Source: Candidatus Villigracilaceae bacterium
GTDB lineage: Bacteria > Chloroflexota > Anaerolineae > Anaerolineales > Villigracilaceae
Assembly: GCA_026645935.1 (NCBI GenBank)
Contig: JAPKMP010000003.1
Span: 62,001 to 126,000 of the forward strand
Length of the DNA: 64,000 nucleotides
Reading direction: 5' to 3'
A program made the position numbers and the translations under genes. Under the pieces are notes generated by a model that ran no database searches, was not told the origin of the DNA, and saw only the letters and a program-made list of their open reading frames with translations. Numbering within the stretch: position 1 is the first letter of the stretch; each line of letters begins with the position of its first letter. Of the stretch, positions 31,795 through 64,000 are shown piece after piece.

Positions 31795-31878
31795 GTCATT
31801 GCGAGGGCAAAGCCCGAAACAATCTCAGACCCAATCATAAGATTGCTTCGTCGGGAAGAACACCCTCCTCGCAATGAC
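31795..31878. repeat. Dispersed palindromic repeat, type A (GTCATTGCGAGG...CCTCGCAATGAC)
   Basis: 12-bp terminal inverted repeats, 84 bp, between pstA and pstB; similar elements at 34789-34865 and 63757-63832. Confidence 0.85.
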
Positions 31879-34788: not shown

Positions 34789-34865
34789 GTCATTGCGAGG
34801 CGCAGCCGAAGCAATCTTCAAATTCTTTGATGAGATTGTTTCGACACCCTGCTCCTCGCAATGAC
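34789..34865. repeat. Dispersed palindromic repeat, type A
   Basis: GTCATTGCGAGG...CCTCGCAATGAC, 77 bp, between nfeD-like gene and lipA. Confidence 0.85.
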
Positions 34866-58183: not shown

Positions 58184-60537
58184 TAATGAACCGCCATATC
58201 TCCGTCACCGGTATCGTGCAGGGAGTCGGTTTCCGCCCGTTCATTTACGGGCTCGCGAAACGGCTCGACTTGCACGGCTGGGTGCGGAACACATCTGGCG
58301 GCGTGGAGATCGTGGTTCAAGGGAACGAGTCGCAGGTTGAACGTTTCGTTCGCAGCCTGAAGACGGAAGCACCCCCGCTGGCTAAGATCGATTCGATCTC
58401 AATTCGATCCGGCCTCCCGGACATAAACTTTAAGACCTTCGACATTCAACCTTCAACCCGGATCGAAGGCGCATTCCAGCCAGTTTCAGCGGATATTGCC
58501 ATCTGCACGGACTGCGAACGCGAACTCTTCGACCCGAGAGACAGGCGGTATCTTTATCCGTTCATCAACTGCACGAATTGCGGTCCGCGTTTTACGATCA
58601 TCACCGACCTGCCCTATGACCGCCCCGCCACCACCATGGCGGAATTCGAAATGTGCGCTGAATGCCGCGCCGAATATACCGACCCTTCGAACCGCCGCTT
58701 CCACGCCCAGCCGGTGGCTTGTCCGCAATGCGGACCCTGCGTCCATCTCGAAGAGCCGCCGTCTCATTTTCAAGACCTGTCCACGATCGATCTGCGCCTC
58801 GCCGCAATCCTGAAAACAAGAAAATATCTACGGGAGGGAAAGATCATCGCCGTCAAAGGGATCGGCGGTTTTCATCTTGCCTGTGATGCGGAAAACAAGA
58901 TGGCGGTCGATGAATTACGGCGAAGAAAGGGCAGGGAGGGCAAACCGTTCGCATTGTTGGCGGCGGACCTTGAAATGATACGGCGCCATTGCGAAGTGAA
59001 CGAAGCGGAACGCGAATTGCTCACCGGCAGGGAAAAGCCCATCGTCCTCTTGAACAAAAGGGAAAACTCCACCCTGCCCGATGACCTTGCCCCCGGCATG
59101 GACAGGCTCGGTTTCATGCTGCCCTACACCCCGCTCCATCATTTGCTCCTCAATCGAAGCGACCCCATTCTCAATCGAGAACCCGTCCCGCCGATCCTCG
59201 TGATGACCAGCGGCAACTTCAGCGAGGAACCCATCGCCACCGATAACCAGGACGCGCTTGAACGTCTCGCGCCCCTGGCAGATGCCTTTCTTCTACACAA
59301 CAGGGATATTCACGTAAGATGCGATGATTCAGTCTTAAGAGTGGAAAGAAGAAAGAAGAAGGAAAGCGCGGCGCTTTCCTCTTTCATCTTTCTTCGTCGT
59401 TCCCGCGGGTATGCTCCGTATCCCGTTCGTCTTCCCTTCGATGCGATTCCCACCCTCGCCGTCGGCGGCGAACTCAAGAACACGTTTTGTCTTGCGCGCG
59501 ACCGAAGCGCCATCCTCAGCCACCACATCGGCGACATGGAAAACGTCGAAACCTTCCAGTCCTTCGAGCAGGGAGTCGACCATCTCAGCCGTTTGTTCCG
59601 TGTGAATCCCGAACTTATCGCCTGCGACATGCATCCCGGTTATTTCACGACAAAATACGCGCAGGAAATCGCAAACATTCCCCGCATTGCCGTCCAGCAC
59701 CATCACGCGCACATCGCTTCCTGCCTGGCGGATAACGGGTTGGAAAATAGACGATTGATTGGCCTCGCCTTCGATGGAACCGGATATGGGACCGATGGAT
59801 CCATTTGGGGAGGGGAAATCCTTCTCGCCTCCTTCGCAGACTTTGAGCGGTTCGCACACCTCGAGCCTTTGCCTCTCCCCGGCGGCGACTCTGCCATCCG
59901 CCATCCCTGGCGAATCGCGGTGGGATACACCCACGCCCTGGGAATCGACATCGATGATCTGCAATTCCTGAAAAATCTGGACATGCTGGCTGTCAACATC
60001 GTCAGACAGCAGGCGGACAGAAAACTGAACGCGCCGCTCACCTCCTCGATGGGCCGCCTCTTCGACGCCGTTGCAAGCCTGATCGGAATCCGGAATGACG
60101 TTACCTATGAAGCGCAAGCCGCAATCGAAATGGAAGTATTATCCAAGCCGTTCCTGACAACCAAACCGTATCCATATTCGGTGGATAAATCCATTCCGCT
60201 CAAAGGACTCCTTCAATCCATTGTTCATGACGTCCGCACAGGCAAACCCGCCGGGATGATTGGCGCAAGATTCCATAAAACGATTGCCGATATAACCATT
60301 GATGTTTGCAAATGTGCCCGCGTTCAAACGAGTCTCAGTGAGGTCGCTCTCTCAGGCGGCGTCTGGCAGAACGAACTCCTGCTGAACCTTGTCCGTGACG
60401 GACTTGAGCGCGAAGGCTTTACTGTTTATTTCCACAAGCAGGTCCCATGCAATGACGGCGGCTTGGCGCTGGGTCAGGCTGTGGCAGCGAATGCCATTGC
60501 GAGCCGCGAAGCGGCGAAGCAATCCCCCGTCGTATGA
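58180..60537 (+). CDS. hypF: Carbamoyltransferase HypF
   Basis: Acylphosphatase domain MNRHISVTGIVQGVGFRPFIYGLAKRLDLHGWVRNTSGGVEI; CTDCERELFD, CTNCGPRFTI; C-terminal VALSGGVWQNELL. Confidence 0.95.
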   Translation: MIMNRHISVTGIVQGVGFRPFIYGLAKRLDLHGWVRNTSGGVEIVVQGNESQVERFVRSLKTEAPPLAKIDSISIRSGLPDINFKTFDIQPSTRIEGAFQPVSADIAICTDCERELFDPRDRRYLYPFINCTNCGPRFTIITDLPYDRPATTMAEFEMCAECRAEYTDPSNRRFHAQPVACPQCGPCVHLEEPPSHFQDLSTIDLRLAAILKTRKYLREGKIIAVKGIGGFHLACDAENKMAVDELRRRKGREGKPFALLAADLEMIRRHCEVNEAERELLTGREKPIVLLNKRENSTLPDDLAPGMDRLGFMLPYTPLHHLLLNRSDPILNREPVPPILVMTSGNFSEEPIATDNQDALERLAPLADAFLLHNRDIHVRCDDSVLRVERRKKKESAALSSFIFLRRSRGYAPYPVRLPFDAIPTLAVGGELKNTFCLARDRSAILSHHIGDMENVETFQSFEQGVDHLSRLFRVNPELIACDMHPGYFTTKYAQEIANIPRIAVQHHHAHIASCLADNGLENRRLIGLAFDGTGYGTDGSIWGGEILLASFADFERFAHLEPLPLPGGDSAIRHPWRIAVGYTHALGIDIDDLQFLKNLDMLAVNIVRQQADRKLNAPLTSSMGRLFDAVASLIGIRNDVTYEAQAAIEMEVLSKPFLTTKPYPYSVDKSIPLKGLLQSIVHDVRTGKPAGMIGARFHKTIADITIDVCKCARVQTSLSEVALSGGVWQNELLLNLVRDGLEREGFTVYFHKQVPCNDGGLALGQAVAANAIASREAAKQSPVV
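59343..59396. repeat. Palindromic element embedded in hypF coding sequence
   Basis: AGAAAGAAGAAAGAAGAAGGAAAGCGC/GGCGCTTTCCTCTTTCATCTTTCTTC imperfect palindrome in frame. Confidence 0.8.
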
Positions 60538-60585
60538 AGGGGGTTGCGTTTGAGAACGCAACCTACGCAACACAAAGGATGAACC

Positions 60586-63058: not shown

Positions 63059-64000
63059 ATGATATCCATCCAACGTCGCGATCTTGTGTGGAGTTTGCCG
63101 CTGTCCCTTTTGCTCGGAGCTGGACTCTCCGCCCTCCAGCCGGGGAATTTTTTCATCGGTTGGCTGGGTTTCTCTCTCCTCCTTTTTCTTTCCCTCTTTC
63201 TTCTTTCATCCGCAACGCGCTGGGCTGGCGGTGGTCTCGATACCTTCGTACTCGACCACCGCAAAACCCTCGCATGGATGGTTGCTCTCGCTTTCATTCT
63301 CCGGTTTGCGGGCGGCGTAGGGACCTATCTCGCTTTGCCGGTTTACGGTCACGCAGGGGATGAGGAGCAAAGCGCGGGCTTCACATACACGGATGCCTAC
63401 CGCCGCGATTCTCAAGCTTGGGAACTTGCTTCATCCGACCGCCCAATTCTGGACGCCTTCAACAGCCGCTTCGCCTCGGACCAATATGGCGGTTTGCTGG
63501 CGTTCTGTGCTTTTATCTACCGTTATCTTTCTCCCGACGCGCATCGCGTTTTGTTACTTGTGCTAATGTCCGCTTTGATGGGCGCATTGGGAATCCCGTT
63601 CTTATGGAAGGCGGCGAACTTGCAATGGGGTGAAAAAGTTGCGACGGCAACAAGCTGGATCTTTGCGTTATATCCGGAAAGCATCCTGCTGGGCGGAGTT
63701 CCCATGCGGGAGCCGTATTTGCTGGCATTCAGCGCGTTTTGCCTGTGGGGATTTGTGTCATTGCGAGCGGAGCGAAGCAATCTCCCCCTTGAAACCGGGA
63801 GGCTGCTTCGGGAAGAACACCCTCGTAACGACATAATTGGAAGCAATAAAAAATCATTGGCCTGGCTTGCGCTCGGCGTTTTGGGAATGCTGCTCGTGTC
63901 GCCGTCCATTGCACTGGTCACGCTCATCATCCTCGGCGGGTGGATATACTTTTCCAGCGAGCGCGGACGATTTCCATGGTGGGTTGTGGCTTTATTGGTG
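63059..64000 (+). CDS. Multi-TM membrane protein, glycosyltransferase-39-like (truncated by window end)
   Basis: Continuous frame from ATG at 63059 to window end: MISIQRRDLVWSLPLSLLLGAGLSALQPGNFFIGWLGFSLLLFLSLFLL...GVPMREPYLLAFSAFCLWGF.... Not reported whole in the ORF track. Confidence 0.65.
   Translation, partial: MISIQRRDLVWSLPLSLLLGAGLSALQPGNFFIGWLGFSLLLFLSLFLLSSATRWAGGGLDTFVLDHRKTLAWMVALAFILRFAGGVGTYLALPVYGHAGDEEQSAGFTYTDAYRRDSQAWELASSDRPILDAFNSRFASDQYGGLLAFCAFIYRYLSPDAHRVLLLVLMSALMGALGIPFLWKAANLQWGEKVATATSWIFALYPESILLGGVPMREPYLLAFSAFCLWGFVSLRAERSNLPLETGRLLREEHPRNDIIGSNKKSLAWLALGVLGMLLVSPSIALVTLIILGGWIYFSSERGRFPWWVVALLV
63757..63832. repeat. Type A palindromic repeat in frame inside the membrane protein gene
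   Basis: GTCATTGCGAGCGGAGCGAAGCAATCTC...GGCTGCTTCGGGAAGAACACCCTCGTAACGAC, matches 31795-31878 and 34789-34865. Confidence 0.85.

Follow-up and report, generated by a model that had tools for sequence, protein, structure and literature searches.

A dispersed palindromic repeat in a gene for a membrane protein, carried there without loss of the reading frame, raises two questions: how it came to lie in that site, and what becomes of such a site as related species diverge. The element concerned lies near the end of the 64,000-nucleotide stretch of DNA analysed here (the window), in the second of two variable loops of the encoded protein (loop 2), and matches two intergenic copies elsewhere in the window, as an earlier note on this DNA had claimed; the coordinates given there are exact (Table 1). 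The account that we consider very probable is that a REP-type dimeric palindrome has been inserted in a tolerant loop of the membrane protein and would be translated as a near-neutral insert, such loops being hit, emptied and refilled across species. Three features central to this account were missed by the earlier note: the nature of the element as a dimer of REP hairpins, the family D palindrome at 63230-63260, and the reuse of loops by unrelated families.

Table 1. Positions of the host gene and of the palindromic elements discussed in the text
Feature	Position	Strand	Basis
Host ORF, multi-helix membrane protein, 554 aa	63059..64000, runs on past the window	+	Intact frame, orthologs, AF2 model
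Family A element in loop 2, two REP-like hairpins head to head (GTCATTGCGAG...CTCGTAACGAC), in frame, coding SLRAERSNLPLETGRLLREEHPRNDI	63757..63832	+	Genome end counts, covariance model, ortholog absence, sharing with L250/L258
Loop 1 of the host ORF, in-frame palindrome of family D (GGTGGTCTCGATAC CTTC GTACTCGACCACC), adds about LDTFVLDHR	63230..63260	+	13 genome copies, control 0
Intergenic family A dimer	31795..31878	+	Window search
Intergenic family A dimer	34789..34865	+	Window search
Single family A REP unit at hypF 3' end, codes last 13 residues (IASREAAKQSPVV) and stop	60490..60530	+	E 6e-5 for the stretch 60490-60576
YyaL/DUF255 protein, in-frame family A copy	C25:22146
Second predicted membrane protein, in-frame family A copy	C33:35704
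FGE-sulfatase lipoprotein, in-frame family A copy in signal-peptide region	C9:29285-29368 (L112:2601-2684)
Family D nested in family A	G000 C1:94396, C14:32888, C44:187578, C70:143461

The host gene and its insert

The earlier note described a frame open from 63059 to the end of the window. This frame starts with an ATG and remains open, closing about 720 bp further on at a stop codon at L031:4721-4723. The downstream frame is intact, and the approximately 294 codons that follow the insert align with orthologs and contain no stop. Orthologs of the host ORF were detected in 55 of the 60 genomes of the family, the nearest being those of Anaerolineales/Chloroflexota MAGs. Pfam and NCBIfam searches with the host protein gave no match. 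Its AlphaFold (AF2) model (pLDDT 86, pTM 0.89) has OST, AglB, PMT and ArnT as its top matches in the PDB, with E values down to 9e-5 and low or modest TM-scores. The predicted structure is thus distantly like GT-C/oligosaccharyltransferase folds, by which a function is only suggested.

The element in loop 2 is recognised by the family A covariance model at E = 1.4e-12, and RNA folded from the copy at 63757-63832 has a z score of -3.9. Alignment with orthologs shows that the segment is missing from most of them, and sister orthologs have no equivalent of the RAERSN-like peptide; most alignments stop at residues 234-239 and restart at 261-264, which is exactly the position of the element. At the level of residues the loop is short and variable at the insertion site, and element-free orthologs of the same genus mostly have a short loop (e.g. 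L034, L047, L052, L262 and L266). The insert has the lowest pLDDT of the model (52-53, residues 241-260) and falls between predicted helices at 218-239 and 256-280. The copy is 76 bp long, which is not a multiple of three, and the net inserted length was inferred from the alignment. A RAERSD-like peptide in L035 and L036 was considered as a further family A copy and rejected, as it derives from another repeat, family E.

Two orthologs that are 77% identical to the host protein, L250 and L258, carry the same family A copy in the same frame, together with a further in-frame insertion of 21 bp, and are identical to each other in the insert region. Comparison of the insert with that of L250 gives three synonymous and four non-synonymous codons. 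The inserts have kept an open frame, but no clear constraint on their amino-acid sequence is apparent from such comparisons, and a tolerated linker is therefore their most likely state. The insert differs from that of L250 by 8%, versus 22% for the whole gene, a difference that a plain neutral linker would not predict, though the sample is small, and that could reflect gene conversion, a recent transfer or constraint.

Family A in the genome

Exact occurrences of the family A ends (GTCATTGCGAG/CTCGCAATGAC) number 83 in the 4.33-Mb genome, versus one for a reversed-pattern control, and a covariance model built on 18 copies places family A at about 74 distinct sites. The family is accordingly dispersed. 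Each half of the element is a hairpin consisting of TGTC, ATTGC, GAG, a variable paired apex, CGAA, GCAAT and CTC, and the two halves face each other, so that the whole element is also a long palindrome. Among 100 apex variants listed from members of the class, pairing between the apex ends is seen at 84% of positions, versus 47% when shuffled, which indicates that the hairpin is conserved and the apex sequence is not. The core motif was found in 61 of 150 genomes of the class, with zero for the controls, and the distribution of family A is patchy. An Rfam search gave no match, and none of the papers listed in a literature search for the motif CATTGCGAG was relevant.

No cognate transposase flanked by family A was found; there are five Y1_Tnp matches in all, four of them with no repeat nearby. 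The fifth, in a gene some 160 bp away from an element, was considered as a mobilising RAYT and rejected, the match being a Y1_Tnp (HUH transposase) domain near the C-terminus of a 537-aa response-regulator-like protein (L062:1453-3066, on C2), possibly a domesticated transposase domain.

Other coding copies

The proposal of the earlier note that in-frame insertion is a general process in this genome proved right, by way of other examples than those it had offered. It had named two further cases in hypF and one in mvhD; when the window was searched with the model and all filters were switched off, there was a single family A unit at the 3' end of hypF, no second case in that gene, and no repeat in mvhD. 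The examples that do bear out a general process are in a YyaL/DUF255 protein, a second predicted membrane protein and the signal peptide of a lipoprotein (Table 1). The YyaL insert, like that of the host protein, is modelled with low confidence and lies between helices. The copy in the FGE-sulfatase lipoprotein is common to L201 and L202, and L203 retains only the right arm, after an in-frame internal deletion. This right arm seems to serve as the hydrophobic core of the predicted signal peptide. The FGE insert differs from that of L202 by four synonymous and eight non-synonymous codons.

The length of the element is divisible by three in 11 of the 12 coding copies versus 19 of the 61 non-coding copies (p = 1.3e-4; p = 0.0015 after equal lengths were collapsed per gene), with many element-spanning ORFs of poor coding score and antisense appearance left out of the coding set. 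The conserved ends leave two of the three frames on each strand free of stops, and a fair share of copies can therefore yield an open in-frame insert.

Unrelated families in the same loops

The host ORF contains a second palindrome, of family D, in loop 1. This is missing from many orthologs; L256 also has a family D copy there, with a different and longer apex, and L250 has a GGACAAACT/AGTTTGTCC repeat, named family F. Loop 2 is occupied by several families within the genus. Family A occupies it in the query genome and L258, and in part in L277; family C (TGGAGT..ACTCCA) occupies it in L033, L260, L261, L263, L267 and L275; and family D (TCTCGATAC..TACTCGACC, in either orientation) occupies it in L257, L259, L270 and L276. 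Across species the loop thus contains A, C, D, E or nothing recognisable, in a polyphyletic pattern on the gene tree. L257, the closest full-length ortholog (88%), has D in this loop, and the more distant L258 shares A with the query genome. In L256 (JABWAU010000151.1; 87%, partial) the contig ends exactly at the loop 2 site, probably an assembly broken by a repeat there.

Two other sites first found via family A behave similarly: that in the predicted membrane protein has A, B or C, and that in YyaL has A or C, again polyphyletic on the gene trees. In the three loops, family C is present in 6 of 26, 4 of 20 and 5 of 19 orthologs, versus about 1% expected; occupancy among orthologs is the measure used for this family because an enrichment over ten genomes chosen for having C at these sites is unsuitable. 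Families C and D are dispersed in their own right, C with up to 20 distinct strict matches per genome (controls zero) and D with 13 copies in the query genome (control 0). Dispersal was counted for A, C and D, whereas the palindromic or repeat-like nature of B, E and F was judged by eye. No sequence is common to A, B, C and D, and in the genomes examined the copies in the loops match the dispersed consensus of their own family. Some family C copies are in frame in further genes. In the relatives L236, L239, L240, L244 and L249, family C lies in long open frames of other genes, among them ORFs that by eye are polyketide-synthase-like or code for membrane proteins.

Origin of the loop inserts

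In the mechanism that we propose, a family A copy of the head-to-head dimeric REP type would have inserted into the loop between two helices and would be translated as a hydrophilic insert of 25-26 residues, the stop-free frames at the conserved ends allowing a fair share of copies to give an open in-frame insert. Selection would remove insertions into genes elsewhere, and copies in tolerant loops would persist as near-neutral linkers. With several unrelated palindromic families present, either the flux may be high enough, or the landing selective enough, for the same few loops to be revisited, and the mobilising enzyme probably acts in trans. Two readings of the cause of loop reuse remain, namely few tolerant loops combined with high flux, or palindromes that attract palindromes.

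The second of these would add a targeting step to the mechanism above: palindromes would insert into existing palindromes, or swap hairpin apices with them, and an occupied loop would become a hotspot. Four of the 13 copies of family D are nested in family A elements, where about 0.02 would be expected, although nested copies would also survive better, intergenic repeats being tolerated. The orthologous loop 1 copies of D in the query genome and L256 differ at the apex only, and the extra 21-bp insert of L250 is itself palindromic and sits at the tip of the left A hairpin. The frequency of family C at the three family A loops points the same way. Against this, the junctions differ by several bases between families, and the target is therefore not fixed; the empty loops of orthologs that lie outside the occupied clades allow independent first insertions; and no enzyme for such a step is known. 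We hold targeted landing to be a real possibility, though one that falls short of even chances. The broader form of the idea, in which unrelated palindromic families target each other's hairpins and make a few protein loops of the genus durable hotspots where coding sequence is repeatedly rewritten with the frame kept, is somewhat more doubtful.

It is also conceivable, but improbable, that the insert has been domesticated and now does something useful for the host protein, for instance as a signal peptide or an interaction segment. The apparent contribution of the FGE right arm to a signal peptide, with the retention of that arm in L203, and the conservation of the main insert with L250 are consistent with this; the synonymous and non-synonymous changes are nevertheless about as expected without constraint, and the content of the loop ranges from empty to unrelated peptides among close species.

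Slightly less probable again is a single ancient insert that has diverged at one site into seemingly different families. The authors of a study of Rickettsia japonica considered both hotspots and the divergence of a single insert, and were inclined towards divergence for RPE-4, RPE-6 and RPE-7 (PMC3767692). Some A copies in the present case are clearly shared by descent (those of the query genome with L250/L258, and the FGE copies of L201 and L202), and the copy common to the query genome and L182 probably is. Yet the families that occupy one loop bear no sequence relation to each other, and C and D, like A, are dispersed, which makes divergence of a single insert unlikely; their polyphyly on the gene trees, and the presence of D in the closest full-length ortholog when A is found in the more distant L250/L258, argue against it as well. 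Finally, a chimeric assembly, or a pseudogene whose frame is open by chance, to which misassembly-prone repeats and the truncated L256 contig might point, is very improbable given that L250 (CAADGT010000042.1), a separately deposited genome record, carries this insert too, in the same frame, and that the codons after the insert align with orthologs. Repeated insertion remains the preferred reading.

Comparison with known systems

Family A resembles MITEs in being short, non-autonomous and dispersed, with terminal inverted repeats. It is unlike them in that no parent transposon was identified and no target-site duplication was detected, matching flanks of 2-10 bp showing no excess. With its TGTC tag and no repeat-flanked RAYT, it also differs from the GTAG REPs that are associated with RAYTs.

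In structure, family A resembles the C/TGTC-tagged REP superfamily (Di Nocera 2013, PMC3733652), which includes RPE-4 and RPE-6 of Rickettsia, classed as CGTC REPs (PMC3733652). A T precedes GTC in 60 of 65 family A copies, giving the terminal TGTC; ATTGC pairs with GCAAT, the stem thus starting with a complementary AT; and 65 of 86 places were resolved as dimers with both ends, so that head-to-head dimers predominate. Intragenic units are likewise common to both, as is the lack of a cognate transposase, reported for CGTC REPs in general (PMC3733652). However, family A has a 5-bp ATTGC/GCAAT stem, a GAG/CGAA internal loop, a variable paired apex and the tail CTC, whereas the four described CGTC/TGTC REP families have a stem of 8-9 bp, a loop of 4-5 bases and the tail CCA. 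Family A is therefore outside these four, and represents at most a new branch of the superfamily. Intragenic REPs and the enterobacterial RU elements are likewise small mobile palindromes inside genes, potentially translated, although the parts of those accounts that were consulted (PMC3733652; PMC2759123) do not describe reuse of one loop by multiple families across a genus.

The likeness to Rickettsia palindromic elements that the earlier note had drawn is well founded, since a dispersed palindrome is here in frame in a real, conserved gene and the insertion has occurred without loss of the frame. The Rickettsia elements are also dispersed palindromes, many of them in frame in ORFs and coding 20-30 residues, and orthologs carry different RPE groups at the same loci (PMC3767692). 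A comparison of the host protein with NCBIfam alone gave no RPE match at E <= 1. Unlike the Rickettsia case, the hosts here are Chloroflexota with larger genomes, most copies are non-coding, and single loops are used by at least four families that are unrelated in sequence.

In-frame palindromes are already known from Rickettsia, Wolbachia and several REP-rich bacteria (PMC3733652, PMC3767692), and a literature search of open-licence papers found no account of palindromes of this kind in Chloroflexota. What is new here is the lineage and the reuse of the same loops by multiple families. Such loops seem to serve repeatedly as landing sites in which selfish DNA is turned into protein, natural experiments in that transition, with one signal peptide seemingly built in part from a repeat. 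The presence of unrelated families in the same loops of one much-sequenced genus makes the question of hotspots versus divergence that was raised in R. japonica directly testable, and favours repeated insertion.
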